From the NCBI GenBank assembly GCA_030835845.1, contig JAUROD010000036.1:1-64000 (forward strand): 64,000 nt of DNA, read 5' to 3'. The translations under genes were made by a program, and so were the position numbers. The DNA comes from Flavobacteriaceae bacterium (GTDB lineage Bacteria; Bacteroidota; Bacteroidia; Flavobacteriales; Flavobacteriaceae). Shown piece by piece: positions 15,215 to 24,742 of the stretch (within the stretch, counting starts at the first letter, position 1; the number at the start of each line of letters is the position of its first letter). Under the pieces are notes generated by a model. The model did not search any database. It was given only the letters and a program-made list of their open reading frames with translations, and was not told the DNA's origin.

Positions 15215-15712
15215 GTCAATTGAATCGCTCGAAATTTCCTCCATTGTAATCCCATCTATTCGTTTTAGATAGGCAGAATATGCGATGTACAATTCGCGTA
15301 AACTTTGATTGAGTTCAAGCTGCATTTTTTCCTCACTGTGAAATCTTGCTTTTATCAATTGAGTCTTAACCACCTTTAATCTACCTTTAACCTCTGGTAC
15401 ATCATAAGGTAAGGGTAACTTCTCTTTCAACAATTGATTACAATTGATTAAGGCGTCATTCAAAAAAGGCTCTAGACCTTCTTGGTTAAGTTTTGATAAA
15501 TCTTCAATTGTAGTTCTGAATTTTGAAAATGACTCATTGTTTAACATCGATGAATCCATAATATCCTCTGACTGGAGAGTATATATGTCAATCGTTTCCT
15601 TTTCGATTTCAACCGTTGGCTCTTCTACAAGCTGTTTTTGCTCTGGCTTAGTTGGTGTTGTGTTACATCCAATCAATATGAAAACTAAAAAGATCGAGTA
15701 TTTAAAGTGCAT
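15206..15712 (-). CDS. Uncharacterised lipoprotein, last gene of the crt operon
   Basis: 168 aa; signal peptide with lipobox (FLVFILIGCNTT); its start overlaps the cruF-like 3' end by 11 nt. Confidence 0.7.
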   Translation of the reverse strand: MHFKYSIFLVFILIGCNTTPTKPEQKQLVEEPTVEIEKETIDIYTLQSEDIMDSSMLNNESFSKFRTTIEDLSKLNQEGLEPFLNDALINCNQLLKEKLPLPYDVPEVKGRLKVVKTQLIKARFHSEEKMQLELNQSLRELYIAYSAYLKRIDGITMEEISSDSIDLN

Positions 15713-16382
15713 TTTGAAGGGTATTAAGTTGAAGTAAAAGAATCATAAAAAATAATAATTGAAGAAAAAAGAGGTGATGGGTATAGGACTCTTTTAGCTC
15801 AATTTTAAGCGATTGATATAAAATATTGAGGGGTAAAGCAACTAAAAACCATCCAATAAAATTTTGTAATGGAGGTTTTCCTCCTTCAAATTCCCAAAAG
15901 TCTAAAACTGGTGCAATGGGCTCAATAACAAAATCTAAAAGAAGCATGAGTGCTACACCCAATAGTATTCTGATGAAATAGTTATTTACCATGCTTCTTG
16001 CAATAGCAGCGCAACAAATAGTCAAAATAGACCAGTTAATCCCAATCAAAATAGGAACCTCTTTAAACTTTACTCCCAACGCATCTCCGTATGAATAGTT
16101 CCCAAAAATAAGACCATAATGCACACCTAATCCCTCCGCTATCATCCCTACAAAAAAGGCAACAAGTGCAACGAGATAAACCTTTTTATTTTCTCTACTT
16201 GTCCATAGAAGAAGAACAAATGAAAGTGTTAAATTTAGTGGTGTTGCACCGACAAACCATTGAGAGTTTCCATATAAAATACCTACAATACCACTGACAT
16301 GAAAAAGCCAAATTAATGCAATTGCAATGGTATTTGATGTAATTTTTTCTTTAATTTCCATAGGACTAAGGCACCTGTTCAC
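15702..16382 (-). CDS. cruF: Carotenoid biosynthesis membrane protein, CruF-like (carotenoid 1-/1'-hydratase type)
   Basis: 226 aa polytopic protein, EGLGVHYGLIFGNYSYGDALGVKFKEVPILIGINW...LDFVIEPIAPVLDFWEF; overlaps the crtD-like gene by 17 nt. Confidence 0.82.
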   Translation of the reverse strand: MNRCLSPMEIKEKITSNTIAIALIWLFHVSGIVGILYGNSQWFVGATPLNLTLSFVLLLWTSRENKKVYLVALVAFFVGMIAEGLGVHYGLIFGNYSYGDALGVKFKEVPILIGINWSILTICCAAIARSMVNNYFIRILLGVALMLLLDFVIEPIAPVLDFWEFEGGKPPLQNFIGWFLVALPLNILYQSLKIELKESYTHHLFFLQLLFFMILLLQLNTLQNAL

Positions 16383-17826
16383 TTACAATTTTAGCGGACA
16401 ACAAACATAGTGGTATCCCTCCACCAGGATGAACGCTTCCACCACAAAAATAGAGATTTTTGATTTTGCGTGAGAAATTTGGATGTCTCCAAAAAGCTGC
16501 CATTCTATTATTACTTGAAGAACCGTACAATGCTCCTAAATGAGACTCTGTTTTTGCTTGAATTAATGGGGGTGTAAGAATCTCTTCAACTTCGATTAAG
16601 TCCTCGAAAGACTCACTCAATACGTTCTCTATTTTTGCAATAACTACCTTACGTAGTTGAGTGACAAATTGATCCCAATCTTGTCCGTAGTCTGCAGCTG
16701 TATTAATCATTACAAACCAATTCTCACAACCCGTTGGCGCATCCCCAGGGACGTCTTTTGATGTAATATTAATATATACCGTTGGATCCTCATACAAACC
16801 ACGAGATTTGAAAATAGCTTCAAATTCTTTTCTATAATCAGCTGAAAAAATAATGTTGTGAAGATTTAATTGAGGAAAGCTTTTTTTGATTCCCCAATAA
16901 AAAATTACTGCTGAACTTGATCGCTCTTGGTGGAGTGTTTTTTTTGGAAATTGTTGTTTTGGCAATAGTTTCTTGTAAGTTGGAAAAATATCCATGTTGG
17001 ACACAATTATATCTGCTGGAAGGTGATCTTTTCCTATTCGAACATGAGTTGCTTTCTTGTTTTCAACTAGGATTTCATCCACTTTAGTGTTAAAATAAAA
17101 CTGGACTCCTTGACGTTTTGCCAGTCTATAAAGAGATTGACTAATTTGCTCCATCCCACCCTCTGGAACAAAAGTTCCGTAAAATGATTCTAAATGTTGA
17201 ACCAAAGTCATTATCCCAGGAGTTTGAAAAGGAGAAGATCCATTGTAAGTGGCATAGCGATTATAAAGTTGAATTAAATAGGGGTTTTTTAATTGTTGTT
17301 TATTTACATCGTCTAATGATTTATTTAACTCAAAAAGAGAAAGATTAGCGATTGCTTTAAGGGTGTCTTTTTGGAGAAATGTAGCGACTCTATGTAATGA
17401 TTTCTCGAGAAAAAGAGAAACCGTTAAATCATATTTCTTTTTTGCTTTATTAAGGTAATTATCAAGTTGTTCAGCAGGAACATTTAGCTTTTTTTCTATT
17501 TCTTGAAGAAACTTTTTTTTATCTGCATGTGCGGTAATTCGCATTCCGTCTATCCAAAAATATTCACATGCAATTTCTTTTCGTTTGTACGAGAAAAAGT
17601 CCCTTGGATTTTCACCAAAAAGTTGAAAAAGTTCATCCACAAAATGAGGCATAGTAAACAAAGAAGGTCCCGCATCAAAACGATATTTACCAATCTGAAA
17701 AGCACTGAGTTTCCCTCCTGGATAACTATTAGACTCATATACATCAACCTGATATCCTTTGTGTTTTAATCGGATAGCGGCTGAAATTCCAGCGATACCT
17801 GACCCTATAACGATAGCTTTCTTCAT
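16366..17826 (-). CDS. crtD: CrtI-family carotenoid desaturase, CrtD-like
   Basis: 486 aa; VIGSGIAGISAAIRLKHKGYQVDVYESNSYPGGKLS FAD motif and C-terminal CGGSVHPGGGIPLCLLSAKI; CrtD assignment by neighbours. Confidence 0.82.
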   Translation of the reverse strand: MKKAIVIGSGIAGISAAIRLKHKGYQVDVYESNSYPGGKLSAFQIGKYRFDAGPSLFTMPHFVDELFQLFGENPRDFFSYKRKEIACEYFWIDGMRITAHADKKKFLQEIEKKLNVPAEQLDNYLNKAKKKYDLTVSLFLEKSLHRVATFLQKDTLKAIANLSLFELNKSLDDVNKQQLKNPYLIQLYNRYATYNGSSPFQTPGIMTLVQHLESFYGTFVPEGGMEQISQSLYRLAKRQGVQFYFNTKVDEILVENKKATHVRIGKDHLPADIIVSNMDIFPTYKKLLPKQQFPKKTLHQERSSSAVIFYWGIKKSFPQLNLHNIIFSADYRKEFEAIFKSRGLYEDPTVYINITSKDVPGDAPTGCENWFVMINTAADYGQDWDQFVTQLRKVVIAKIENVLSESFEDLIEVEEILTPPLIQAKTESHLGALYGSSSNNRMAAFWRHPNFSRKIKNLYFCGGSVHPGGGIPLCLLSAKIVSEQVP

Positions 17827-17829
17827 GCC

Positions 17830-18507
17830 TTAAAATTCAGTATCTAATTGGACTATAAAGCGAGAAAAAAGATCTTCTTTATACCATTTTTGTTGATGTG
17901 TTTTTTTTACAATATCAGCGTGAGCATGAGACTTATACGCAAACGTATAGACATCCTCAATCGAATCCCAAATACTTACAGTTGCTTGTTGAATAAAAGG
18001 CCATTCTCCGATACCTTTAAAAAACCGAACCCCTTTTGCGTTTTCGATTGCCTTACTCGCTTGTGGAACTGATTTCCAGAATTGAAATAAACGATTCCAA
18101 TTAAGGGTGGCTCGTGTGATGACTGCAATTTTATGCTGGATATCGTACTCAGGTTGAATTGGTTTAAACGGATTTATTCCGCTCCACTTACCATGGCTAT
18201 GTATATTGCTGAGTCTAATTTCTCGTATGCTTGAAGTTCGTTTTTTATACTCGTTAACAAAGGATGAAGATAAAAATTCGATTGCATACTCCTCGGACTC
18301 CCAAACACCAAGAAAAACATAGGTAGAAAAATCAGGTCGTAAACTAAATCCCTGACCTCCTCCAGTTCCAAGCATTTTGAAAAAAGATAATCCCTCAATT
18401 GATTGCAATTGATTGAAAGAAATACCCATTTGTTTGAATGCCCACCAACGGTTGTTTGGGATATTAAAGAAGAGAAGTTGTGTAATCTGAGATTGAGTTG
18501 GCTTCAT
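17830..18507 (-). CDS. crtA: CrtA-like spheroidene monooxygenase family protein (possible carotenoid 2-hydroxylase)
   Basis: From internal ATG (MKPTQSQITQLLFFNIPNNRWWAF): GTGGGQGFSLRPDFSTYVFLGVW, ITRATLNWNRLFQFWKSVPQASKAIENAKGVRFFKGIGEWPFIQQATVSIWDS, AHADIVKKTHQQKWYKEDLFSRF. Confidence 0.82.
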   Translation of the reverse strand: MKPTQSQITQLLFFNIPNNRWWAFKQMGISFNQLQSIEGLSFFKMLGTGGGQGFSLRPDFSTYVFLGVWESEEYAIEFLSSSFVNEYKKRTSSIREIRLSNIHSHGKWSGINPFKPIQPEYDIQHKIAVITRATLNWNRLFQFWKSVPQASKAIENAKGVRFFKGIGEWPFIQQATVSIWDSIEDVYTFAYKSHAHADIVKKTHQQKWYKEDLFSRFIVQLDTEF

Positions 18508-18524
18508 TCCTCTAAGGTAGTGAG

Positions 18525-18595
18525 TAAAAAAGAAAAAAAACGCCTCTGTTGATAGGATTTTAGAATTTGACTTTGGAAGTAATAACAGAGGCGTT
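18525..18595 (-). promoter_or_regulatory. Terminator-like hairpin in the crtA 5' leader (candidate attenuator or sRNA terminator)
   Basis: Minus strand AACGCCTCTGTT-(33 nt)-AACAGAGGCGTT followed by T8-C-T6, upstream of the crtA ATG; perfect 12-bp arms. Confidence 0.6.
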
Positions 18596-18800
18596 AGAAA
18601 CCAAATTGAATTAAACTGTTTAAATATAGTCAATAAAAGTTATACAAAACAAGGGAAAAATGAAAAAAAATAACATTTCTTTAAATAAAAGTGCAAAAAA
18701 ATAGTAATAGTAATGTTGTAAAAGGTAAAAAAATAGACTGTTTTTATGTGCTAGATAAACAAGATTTCATTAATTTTAGTTCAAACTAAATCCAACTACA

Positions 18801-18887
18801 ATGACATCCTCTTTTGTTGCAAACACAGTAATTATTACCACAATACTTGTAATTATTTTTATTGCTAGAGACATAATGAAAAAATAA
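18801..18887 (+). CDS. Putative 28-aa single-transmembrane small protein
   Basis: ATG..TAA reading MTSSFVANTVIITTILVIIFIARDIMKK; hydrophobic core plus positive C-terminus in the crtA-crtI intergenic region; no homology test possible. Confidence 0.4.
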   Translation: MTSSFVANTVIITTILVIIFIARDIMKK

Positions 18888-20476: not shown

Positions 20477-23191
20477 TTATTCTTCTGTCGAAATAAAAGG
20501 GTGTTTCAAATCAAAGATTTCCTGAATTAAGGATGATATAAATCCATCTATTTCATTAAAAAAATCGGTAGTGATTTGAGGATCCCCCGAAGGTACTTCT
20601 TTACGATAGAAAGGGAGCATATACTCCTTGGGGGATTTTAAAGAAATTACACCAATGTCAATACTTTTATTTAGATTGATTTCTTCTTTTTTTGCCCAAG
20701 CGTAGAGCAAAACTTGAAAAAGAGGCTGGGTGTGAAAATCTCCGTAAAACTGATCCCAAGATTTAAACTCTAGTGCTTTTTTCTTTACCAATCCTGTTTT
20801 GTAGTCTATTATACGTAGTGTTCCATTCACACGATCAATCCGGTCAATAGTCCCTACAATATTAATTTCAGTATCAACCTCTTTTAAAGTCAAGGGTATT
20901 GTAAATTTTTCCTCCAAGGCAATCACCTCAATTTCATTCCCTTTATTCATACGTACTTTTTCTTGAGTTAAAAGTGTCTTAATAGCTTGTTCATAGGCTG
21001 CTAATATCAATTTATTTTCTCCTCGGATTGTTTTACTTTTATCATATATTTCTACATAATTAGCGTGCATTACTCCATTCACTTTACGCTCCATTTCCTC
21101 AATAATTTCAAGTGTGAGTAATTGATTTAAATAGGGCTTATAGAGGTCTTCTAGGGTATTGTGAACTAAAGTACCTCTGTTAAAATTTGAAAGGACTGGT
21201 CCAAGAGTCTCATTGTCTTTAATTCCAAGTAGGTAACGATCATAGAAGTCAACAGGGTTTTTTAAATAGGTACTTAAAGAAGTTGGAGAAAACCCACTTT
21301 TTGCTAATAAATTTAAGCGTTCAATCATCGACTTCGTCTTTTCAACTACCCTATTCTCGTGTCTTTTTACATCAATCTTAGAGGTTGATAAAATTTCACT
21401 TACCTTGTGATTTGAATTAGACATAAGTAATAACTGACGTACAAATCTACTTTGTTCACCAGCATGTAGCCCCTCACTTTGTGCATTGTAGAGTATATGT
21501 GCTTTTTTTGCACGTTGGATTAAACGATAAAAGTGATAGCTATAAATCGCATCATTATCCAAAAAGGTTGGAAGTCCAAAATGTTTTTTAAGTGCAAAAG
21601 GGAAAAAACTTTGATCATTTTTTCCCACTGGTAAAACACCTTCATTTACATCGGTAATGATTAAATTTTCAAAATCAAGAACCCTAGATTCAAGCATTCC
21701 CATAAGTTGAAATTTAGCTTTTGGGTCTCCTTTAAAATCAATGTTTTGTTGTCCCAATAACTCTGCAAATAATACAGAAAATGCGGATATTGAAAATTCA
21801 AAAGTGATGTGGTTAAAATGATTTTCAAGTTGCCGCAATACTTTATCAATTCCTTCAAGGGAAGACAATTCTAAAGAATGACTTACCGCTGTAAATTGAT
21901 CTTTTAAATGTTTGGATAACTGACCCAAAAGGCGAAGTAAATCGTGTGCATTTGTACACTTTTGAAAAAGTATTACTCCGACCTCATTTTCTTGTAAAGG
22001 ACGAATTAGTTCATGGTTAATTTCATAGGAATGTGAGGCATATAGATGGCTCAGAAATTCAGTGACTTTAATTTCAGTGTCTTTATATGAAGATCTAATC
22101 ATTGGAAAATGTAAAACGCGCTCCAATGTTTCATATGAATAATTACCCTCAGCTAATCCTTTGTGGAATTCCACACAGTCTTGAAAAAATCGCACTAAAG
22201 GGAGTGACCCTATTGGATATCCCATAGTAACATTCCAATCCGAACAATCATGAGGAAGATGTCCAAGTACAGGCAATAGTAAAAGTTCATTTCCGAAGAT
22301 TATCGCTGTTCCACTATCTTCTGTTTTCAATTGTTCTATGAGGCGACCAACTTCCTTTGCTTGTTCGATGTTCCCTGATAGTCCATGTATTGCTATTTCT
22401 TTTTCCTCTGAAAAACCTGTTTCTTTAAAGGTATAAGGTGTTTTTCTGTAGTACGTCCATTTTGATTGATATTCTTGGATAAATCGTCCAGCAGCATGTA
22501 CTTTGTCATTATAAAGTGCCTCATCTAAATCCCATACTATTTTTCCCTTATCTTCTGACAAAAAGGCTTGAAACATTCGTTCTTCTGCTTTATTAAGTGC
22601 ATTAAAACCAATGAAGTAATGATATTGCGTAGTATGCTCAAGGTATATTTCGATTGTATCTACTGCCTCCCTATACAGCATACCTATTGTCCCTAATTGT
22701 TGTTCAGCTAATTGGGTTGTAAATGACTCATATAAGGCAGGTATAATCTTCCAAAATGATTCGTCAAATGAGCTATTCTGTTCTTTTTCGAGGACATTTT
22801 CGAGTGCATAGTAAGAACCTAAATTGGAGAGTACCGATTCAGAATTCAAGCAATATGCATCAATGTCACTAAAATCCTTTAATAGTTTTGGAGCCCATTG
22901 TAAAAATAATTCAAAAGGATCTCTTTTATCTTTTGGAAGATGCTGGCAATAGAGTTCATACAAGCTGACCAATTGATGGGTGGTGTTCGCCTTTTTTGAT
23001 GTAGCTAATTCCTCTGTAAACTCCTCAATACTATAAACAAGGGGAGCAAATTTGGGTTCCTCTAACTGATTTATTAATTCATTAATAAGAAAAATACCAG
23101 CTCGTTTACTTGGTACAATCAAGCATAGTTTTTCAAAACTAGTATGATTGAGAATATATTCAGAAACAACTTCGGAAATAAAAGATTTCAC
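20477..23191 (-). CDS. AddB-like PD-(D/E)XK nuclease / inactivated helicase
   Basis: 904 aa; N-terminal LIVPSKRAGIFLINELI, C-terminal PD-(D/E)XK nuclease TIDRIDRVNGTLRIIDYKTG. Confidence 0.85.
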   Translation of the reverse strand: MKSFISEVVSEYILNHTSFEKLCLIVPSKRAGIFLINELINQLEEPKFAPLVYSIEEFTEELATSKKANTTHQLVSLYELYCQHLPKDKRDPFELFLQWAPKLLKDFSDIDAYCLNSESVLSNLGSYYALENVLEKEQNSSFDESFWKIIPALYESFTTQLAEQQLGTIGMLYREAVDTIEIYLEHTTQYHYFIGFNALNKAEERMFQAFLSEDKGKIVWDLDEALYNDKVHAAGRFIQEYQSKWTYYRKTPYTFKETGFSEEKEIAIHGLSGNIEQAKEVGRLIEQLKTEDSGTAIIFGNELLLLPVLGHLPHDCSDWNVTMGYPIGSLPLVRFFQDCVEFHKGLAEGNYSYETLERVLHFPMIRSSYKDTEIKVTEFLSHLYASHSYEINHELIRPLQENEVGVILFQKCTNAHDLLRLLGQLSKHLKDQFTAVSHSLELSSLEGIDKVLRQLENHFNHITFEFSISAFSVLFAELLGQQNIDFKGDPKAKFQLMGMLESRVLDFENLIITDVNEGVLPVGKNDQSFFPFALKKHFGLPTFLDNDAIYSYHFYRLIQRAKKAHILYNAQSEGLHAGEQSRFVRQLLLMSNSNHKVSEILSTSKIDVKRHENRVVEKTKSMIERLNLLAKSGFSPTSLSTYLKNPVDFYDRYLLGIKDNETLGPVLSNFNRGTLVHNTLEDLYKPYLNQLLTLEIIEEMERKVNGVMHANYVEIYDKSKTIRGENKLILAAYEQAIKTLLTQEKVRMNKGNEIEVIALEEKFTIPLTLKEVDTEINIVGTIDRIDRVNGTLRIIDYKTGLVKKKALEFKSWDQFYGDFHTQPLFQVLLYAWAKKEEINLNKSIDIGVISLKSPKEYMLPFYRKEVPSGDPQITTDFFNEIDGFISSLIQEIFDLKHPFISTEE

Positions 23192-23235: not shown

Positions 23236-23261
23236 AATGCCCTGAAATACATCAGGGCATT
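23236..23261 (-). terminator. Intrinsic terminator after the ompA-like gene
   Basis: AATGCCCTGA-TGTAT(T)-TCAGGGCATT stem with T-tract on the minus strand. Confidence 0.75.
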
Positions 23262-23287: not shown

Positions 23288-24655
23288 TTATTTGCTTCCC
23301 AAAGAGAATTGAACTCTACGGTTGCTCTTTCTTCCTTTAGCAGTATTGTTATCTCCAATAGGACGATCTTCACCGTAGGCTACAGAAGTTAATCTAGACT
23401 GATCAGATCCTGCTTCAATTAAAGCAGCCATTACTGATGCAGCACGTGATTCAGATAATTTCTGATTGTATCCTTTACTTCCATCACTTGAAGCATGACC
23501 TTCAATAACGAAAGAAACTGTTGGATAGCTATCCAAGATATCTTTAATTTTTCCTAAAACTACAGTTGATTCTTCACCAACGATTTTATTGCTTTCTGCT
23601 TTAAAACGAATCATTGAACTCTCATTGTTCAATGTAGCAATAACATCTTCTGGAAGTTCAGGACATCCATTGTTTGCAGCTACACCAGCCAATTGAGGAC
23701 AAGCATCATCTTTATCAGCTACACCATCTCCATCCGTATCAGGCCATGGGCATCCGTTATTTTGAGCTGGACCTGCAACTTGAGGACAAGCATCATCTTT
23801 ATCGTTTAGACCATCTCCGTCACTGTCAGGACAACCTCCCATTTGAGAAGTTCCAGCACGATTTGGACAAGCATCATCTGGGTCAGCAATTCCGTCTCCA
23901 TCTGTATCAGGACAACCATTCATTACTACAGAACCTGCTGAAGTTGGACAAGCATCATCTTTGTCTGCGATTCCGTCCCCGTCTGTGTCAGGACATCCTG
24001 AAAACTCTTCAAGGCCTGGCTCTTCTGGACATGCATCGAATTTATCGTAGACTCCATCTCCATCAGTATCAACTCCACCAAACTTTACATTCACACCAAA
24101 AGTGTGTTGAAAGTGGTTAATCCCTTTATCATCGACTGCATTCTTGTATTTTGACTCGTATGAAAAACCTAAGTTATCATTCACCCAGTATCCAAGACCA
24201 AAACCAAAGTTATAAGTAACTGAAGCTTCACCATCAAGTGAGCTATACCCAGCACCAATTTGGTAGTAAGGAGTCAAAGCAGAACCCTTGGCAGTAAGTT
24301 GACGACGAAGTCCTAAATCAACAGTATTAAGATTTACTGCATCAATTTCATTATCTCCATACACATTCAGACGATTCATGTTGAGTTGTCCAACAATTGA
24401 AAAACGCTCTGTGATATTTCTACCAACAGAAACTGATGATAGAGGAGTAATGTTCCAGTGACTCACGTTAAAAAACTCTTGGAACCATTTACCTTGAACA
24501 CCTGTCACATCATTTGTTGCGGCATTTGTTGGGTACGTATCAATCGCATTTACACCAAAAGAAACAATCCATGGATTATCTTCGTCTTGTGCAGTAAGCG
24601 TCATTGCAAAAAACAATGCAAAGAACGTTAAGAATTGTTTTGTTATTTTTTTCAT
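23288..24655 (-). CDS. OmpA-family outer membrane protein with thrombospondin type 3 repeats
   Basis: Signal peptide [23 protein letters not shown], beta-barrel domain, repeated DTDGDGxxDxxDACP, C-terminal OmpA domain [26 protein letters not shown]. Confidence 0.93.
23690..24075 (-). repeat. TSP3 calcium-binding repeats within the ompA-like gene
   Basis: Five copies of D(T/S)DGDGxxDxxDACP...GCP in the translation. Confidence 0.85.
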
Positions 24656-24742
24656 TTTTAAATATATATAATAAGTAACAAAATTAACTTTAAAACCTGA
24701 GCTATCCAAAAAAGTTTTGTGCTATTTTAAAAAGAAAAAAGC

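Follow-up and report, generated by a model that had tools for sequence, protein, structure and literature searches.

A predicted small RNA gene beside the carotenoid genes of dozens of sunlit-ocean flavobacteria probably regulates other genes

To our knowledge, characterised small RNAs of Bacteroidota are few. GibS is an intergenic small RNA of Bacteroides thetaiotaomicron of approximately 145 nt that is reported to be conserved within Bacteroides; experiments have shown its expression and its targets BT_0771 and BT_3893, and a glycogen operon adjoins it (PMC7366714). The Rfp RNAs of Flavobacterium psychrophilum are independent transcripts without coding potential, some of them conserved across species, and Rfp18 affects metalloprotease mRNAs, with pairing predicted through its third stem-loop (PMC9723704). 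The sigma-A promoters of Bacteroidetes consist of TTTG at -33 and TAnnTTTG at -12 to -5 (PMC6847099, PMC9723704). A terminator hairpin 5' of a biosynthetic operon is also the arrangement of attenuators and riboswitch leaders.

The window, which is the whole stretch of 64,000 nucleotides analysed here, harbours on its minus strand a predicted small RNA that is a previously unreported family of a type of RNA already known. Likened by published features, it is similar to GibS in belonging to Bacteroidota, in being intergenic, in its predicted own promoter and intrinsic terminator, in its highly conserved unpaired 5' portion, and in the metabolic operon adjacent to it. Unlike GibS, with its greater length, glycogen operon, and experimental targets, the present RNA has approximately 84-90 nt, lies beside the crt operon, and is known from sequence. 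By description, it also resembles the Rfp RNAs as a predicted independent, non-coding transcript of Flavobacteriaceae that is conserved across species, and it differs from Rfp18 in having a single stem-loop. It shares the position of its hairpin with attenuators and riboswitch leaders, but the predicted crtA promoter lies behind the terminator, neither an antiterminator nor an aptamer was found in the RNA, and the RNA is kept without the operon.

No report of a small RNA from uncultured surface-ocean flavobacteria was found. The present RNA is sharply defined by its promoter, its covarying terminator, two conserved unpaired segments, its single copy, and its fixed place, and its fitness as a probe is immediate for metatranscriptomes; it is also a concrete candidate for a post-transcriptional regulator of abundant surface-ocean flavobacteria. 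It lies beside carotenoid genes in groups that bear proteorhodopsin, among them the NS5 marine group, of which the literature mentions a single cultured isolate, Arcticimaribacter forsetii AHE01FL. The features of the locus are the following:

18645..18648, minus strand: -33 element TTTG, inside the conserved block TTTTGTnTAA (~18649-18640), at fixed spacing and corresponding to the published motif.
18621..18628, minus strand: -7 box TATATTTA of the predicted small RNA promoter, kept in all homologues.
18610..18624, minus strand: palindrome over the predicted start site, TTTAAACAGTTTAAT in the window, candidate operator.
18533..18616, minus strand: predicted small RNA of 84 nt (~90 nt if termination occurs later in the T-run), its start placed from the -7 box.
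18596..18616, minus strand: unpaired 5' tail GTTTAATTCAATTTGGTTTCT, candidate seed 1, near-invariant in unselected homologues from BLAST and covariance model searches.
18595-18584, minus strand: 5' arm AACGCCTCTGTT of the terminator stem, a covarying stem (0 out of 500 shuffles).
18551..18583, minus strand: loop of 33 nt, ATTACTTCCAAAGTCAAATTCTAAAATCCTATC, with the core AGTCAAATTCTAAAATCC kept across genera, candidate seed 2.
18550-18539, minus strand: 3' arm AACAGAGGCGTT of the terminator stem, covarying as the 5' arm.
18540-18526, minus strand: T-run, T8-C-T6, of the predicted intrinsic terminator, its first two T being the last two bases of the 3' arm.
18519-18512, minus strand: predicted crtA -7 box TACCTTAG, downstream of the terminator.
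17830..18507, minus strand: crtA, a CrtA-OH-like carotenoid 2'-hydroxylase gene with its ATG at 18507, an adjoining unit separate from the RNA.
16366-17826, minus strand: crtD, which follows crtA.
15702-16382, minus strand: cruF, which follows crtD.

The hairpin 5' of crtA, with its 33-nt loop and T8-C-T6 run, had been noticed in the sequence-only reading and is real. Its arms AACGCCTCTGTT and AACAGAGGCGTT form a perfect, G+C-rich stem of 12 bp on the minus strand, and the 84-nt RNA (18616-18533) folds at -17.0 kcal/mol, versus -7.0±2.35 kcal/mol for shuffles (z = -4.25; none out of 200 as low). A scan for perfect stems of 11 bp with a loop of 3-53 nt and T6 detected two such hairpins in the 64-kb window and none in each of twenty dinucleotide shuffles used as control. 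The standard terminator scan missed the hairpin because it allowed loops of only 3-8 nt. The element had been assigned to 18507-18625; the conserved unit begins further upstream, and extends from ~18652 to 18533.

This unit of approximately 120 bp comprises a Bacteroidetes-type promoter, the RNA of approximately 84-90 nt, and the intrinsic terminator. The TATATTTA element, formerly taken for a weak -7-like sequence, is a good sigma-A -7 box (18628-18621) that fits TAnnTTTG at -12 to -5, last base excepted, and together with the TTTG at 18648-18645 it is part of the conserved unit. Homologues possess TATCTTTA or TATATTTA as -7 box, 16 nt past TTTG, and in fifty distinct loci TTTTGT is conserved at 84-100% per position, at a fixed distance of 16 nt before this box. 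The promoter fits the Bacteroidetes sigma-A consensus, and therefore the start is predicted at the G at 18616. With TTTG-N16-TATATTTA, the putative RNA has a predicted promoter of its own, as is typical of free-standing intergenic small RNAs.

The palindrome TTTAAACA(A)GTTTAAA is present over the start site in most relatives and may be an operator, its invariance being due in part to selection by the 5'-end search pattern. A regulon shared via TTTAAACA(A)GTTTAAA was rejected, with at most one exact site outside the RNA locus per genome with a match. Some carriers (e.g. L101, L102, L112, L120) also possess extra TTTGTTTAA-like boxes approximately 20 nt upstream of the small RNA promoter, which are possibly sites of a regulator.

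The search with the region among sixty relatives revealed a block of ~120 nt (18652-18533) in two genomes, with identities of 93% and 87%, and in both the matched block excluded crtA. According to BLAST and alignment, homologues share 78-93% identity along some 110-145 nt, and their flanks cannot be aligned. Fifteen sequences were used to build a covariance model, which matched in 8 out of 19 genomes of the window's genus, and in 12 out of 400 genomes of the family, which belong to seven genera and are small (1.6-2.2 Mb). Nearly all complete homologues scored 82-119 bits, and the RNA was single-copy per genome in these searches. The same search of 398 genomes of the order and 395 of the class, with filters that are stricter at this size, gave no match beyond the window's own genome.

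The exact 5'-end pattern retrieved fifty named contigs, which are without exception assigned to Flavobacteriaceae, Flavobacteriales or Bacteroidetes; almost all are uncultured. They are marine MAG/SAG assemblies, and two out of the fifty correspond to Candidatus Arcticimaribacter. Two out of the fifty contigs end within the locus and include the 5' part only, the remainder carrying the whole unit. The near-invariance of the 5' tail in this set is set in part by the exact search pattern; it is also present in the unselected homologue set. No match was found in the phage records and viral contigs searched, and a phage or viral origin was rejected on this basis.

Among fifty distinct sequences, seven out of the eleven modelled pairs of the stem changed on both sides, and 97.5% of the cells were paired. 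Forty-eight stem cells were double-changed, versus 14.3 in shuffles (0 out of 500), and no shuffle or slid register came near the observed stem. The predicted RNA has a terminator of its own, intrinsic and with a structurally conserved stem (7/11 pairs covary). Compensatory substitutions and conservation in relatives, the absence of which would have spoken against a functional hairpin, are both present (7/11 pairs; 78-93% identity). Rfam, likewise proposed as a check, returned no family above the gathering threshold: release 15 (4227 families), searched at the gathering threshold and at a lax E-value, gave chance matches only, and the best sub-threshold match was JA04, with 19.7 bits versus a cut-off of 81 (E = 3.1).

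CrtA-OH, CrtD, and CruF are part of the myxol branch of carotenoid synthesis in flavobacteria (PMC11855829). In carriers, the usual order is crtI (minus), often ThuA-like and ion-channel genes (minus), and then RNA-crtA-crtD-cruF, all plus, the strands being given in the direction of the RNA. In most loci roughly 13-80 nt separate the RNA from crtA, and both run in the same direction. Two loci (L088, L131) lack crtA and crtD, and cruF is next; in L107 and L125 there is no crt gene behind the RNA and the next genes face it. The RNA is intact in both pairs of loci, and in this respect is independent from the neighbouring coding genes.

On this evidence the hairpin is probably the intrinsic terminator that closes a free-standing small RNA gene, and we consider it likely that the putative RNA, with its own promoter, acts in trans by base-pairing with mRNAs. 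The sigma-A-type promoter (TTTG/TATATTTA) would drive the RNA on the minus strand from 18616 to ~18530, and the transcript would end at the covarying stem and the T-run. Two conserved unpaired segments would be exposed, GUUUAAUUCAAUUUGG in the 5' tail and AGUCAAAUUCUAAAAUCC in the loop of 33 nt. The tail, the loop or both would pair with mRNAs in the manner of GibS in Bacteroides, the surroundings of the start codon being the most likely site. The output of the RNA probably depends on a condition that is sensed at the promoter through the palindrome over the start site. This condition is probably relevant to pigment or photoheterotrophic life, because of the fixed place of the RNA beside the crtA-crtD-cruF operon. 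The crt operon would be a separate transcription unit, its start being indicated after, not before, the hairpin.

Among the 19 genus genomes, 11 lack the RNA, a CrtA clade with retained crtA being among them, and the RNA is therefore dispensable. In the CrtA tree, the eight genus members with crtA but without the RNA group together in a single, fully supported clade, and the ninth RNA-lacking row, G022, is placed apart on a long branch. In the RNA-lacking L005, L006, L009-L012, L014, and L015, TATCTTTA and a short leader directly precede crtA, similar to the small RNA promoter, and crtA looks as if it had been joined by deletion to a small-RNA-like promoter. A single loss of the RNA, upon which a similar promoter took control of crtA, would account for this clade.

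The sequence-only reading had given the hairpin two possible roles, the attenuation of the carotenoid operon and the termination of a small RNA of 75-90 nt. The latter has stood, given the own promoter, the covarying stem, the conservation of the whole RNA between unalignable flanks, and its retention without a co-directional gene, and the former has lost ground. A cis-acting attenuator or riboswitch, with the RNA as the leader of crtA-crtD-cruF and its terminator overridden under a signal, now appears rather unlikely. A cis role could also be compatible with the co-direction of RNA and crtA across the short gap and with their fixed synteny, seen in most genomes. In the RNA-lacking clade, a similar TATCTTTA box serves crtA, so that promoter and crtA were possibly contiguous in the past. 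However, TAnnTT[T/A]G was found in 20 out of 42 gaps between terminator and crtA, versus 3.7±1.8 in shuffles (maximum 9 in 300). With the box of the window, TACCTTAG, the crtA mRNA would begin on, or close to, the A of the ATG at 18507. From the position of these boxes behind the terminator, two transcripts are most likely, one that stops at the hairpin and another that starts at crtA.

With a separate -7 box in 20/42 gaps and in the window, transcription of crtA would not depend on read-through alone, as it would behind an attenuator. An operon promoter downstream of the hairpin had been named as a finding against attenuation, and the predicted crtA promoter does lie there. Nor does the element always lead a regulated gene, as the next genes in L107 and L125 are on the other strand; it is also intact without crtA in L088 and L131. 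No leader or riboswitch of Rfam matched the RNA. The sole register-specific alternative pairing seen, between tail and loop, spares the terminator stem and therefore would not be an antiterminator. Because of the separate crtA -7 box and of the intact RNA without a co-directional gene, the attenuator is disfavoured, and a small RNA is the better reading of the predicted unit.

A small RNA that binds or titrates a protein, or that adopts a tail-loop pseudoknot, instead of pairing with mRNAs, is also unlikely. Two long conserved unpaired segments are consistent with such a role, and the tail-loop pairing of seven pairs is possible in 97.9% of cells, versus 15.8-58.5% when slid, with one-sided changes mostly keeping it. 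Nevertheless, none of the tail-loop pairs changed on both sides, so that covariation is absent, the tail invariance derives partly from the search pattern, and a protein-binding role comes without a candidate protein.

For a small RNA that pairs in trans, the start regions of crtA, crtD, cruF, crtI, ion channel, ThuA, and c5 gave duplex energies with tail and loop that were no different from those of shuffles, and the mRNAs of these seven neighbouring genes were rejected as targets, with no complementarity above chance. Searches with 15-16-mer anti-seeds in eighteen genomes revealed no recurrent target site. The most recurrent site for the tail complement (15-mer, one mismatch, eighteen carriers), in ffh, was rejected as it is on the wrong strand, where the coding sequence resembles the RNA. 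Exact non-self matches to the loop-core complement were found in only two genomes, one in each.

A target screen covered 1785 genes in two carriers, over 1.59 Mb of G013 and 0.40 Mb of G005. The strongest loop match among the 1785 genes was gapA (z = -6.1 in G013, same site in G005), with pairing from +12 inside the coding sequence. Analysis of codon choice at this site in twenty-six genomes revealed that carriers favour pairing (mean z -0.80, 15 out of 17 negative), whereas the genus non-carriers disfavour it (mean z +0.96, nine genomes). As a target, gapA is a weak lead: most of the non-carriers belong to a single clade, so that the contrast is phylogenetically confounded, and the gene was selected as the top candidate among many. 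That the RNA would link pigment or light state to central carbon metabolism in marine photoheterotrophic flavobacteria, e.g. by loop pairing with the gapA (GAPDH) mRNA just inside the start codon, is a doubtful proposal. Another high-ranking match, with thirteen contiguous pairs 5' of purN in 6 out of 8 genus carriers, lies inside the apparent promoter of purN itself. It was rejected because the site is between the apparent -33 and -7 elements, so it should not be transcribed.

A transcriptional insulator, in which promoter and terminator would make a short non-functional transcript separating divergent units, is very improbable; the location between divergent units, with the predicted crtA promoter immediately after, suits it, but it would not need a 5' tail and a loop that are almost invariant over several genera between unalignable flanks. 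A short ORF for a leader peptide or small protein can be practically dismissed, since the TTG-started frame of fourteen codons seen by inspection in the window version is not kept: tail-to-loop lengths fall in all three frames (21/17/10 modulo 3), 42 out of 48 sequences are without ATG and 6 out of 48 possess one, and, as in a non-coding RNA, indels are not in threes and no start codon is shared.

Besides the hairpin of the RNA, the chance scan of the window detected a sole other long-stem hairpin with a T-run, near 938 (+). A perfect 10-bp hairpin with a T-run at 23236-23261, in the gap between the genes 23288-24709 and 20477-23191, is a second strong terminator-like site. Between crtI and the RNA, many carriers among L086-L135 possess a voltage-gated-type ion channel gene (PF00520), which is absent from the window and from L123, and a ThuA-like gene (PF06283) is present there in ~20/51 loci.

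The nearest divergent gene is not crtI, as had been assumed, since an unannotated ORF of twenty-eight codons (MTSSFVANTVIITTILVIIFIARDIMKK) at 18801-18887 (+), divergent from the RNA and ahead of crtI, is nearer. It likely encodes a single-span membrane protein. Homologues of 28-29 aa are found in the same place in the carriers L002, L003, L004, L086, L088, and L133, and also in the RNA-lacking L005, L006, L011, and L014 of the genus.
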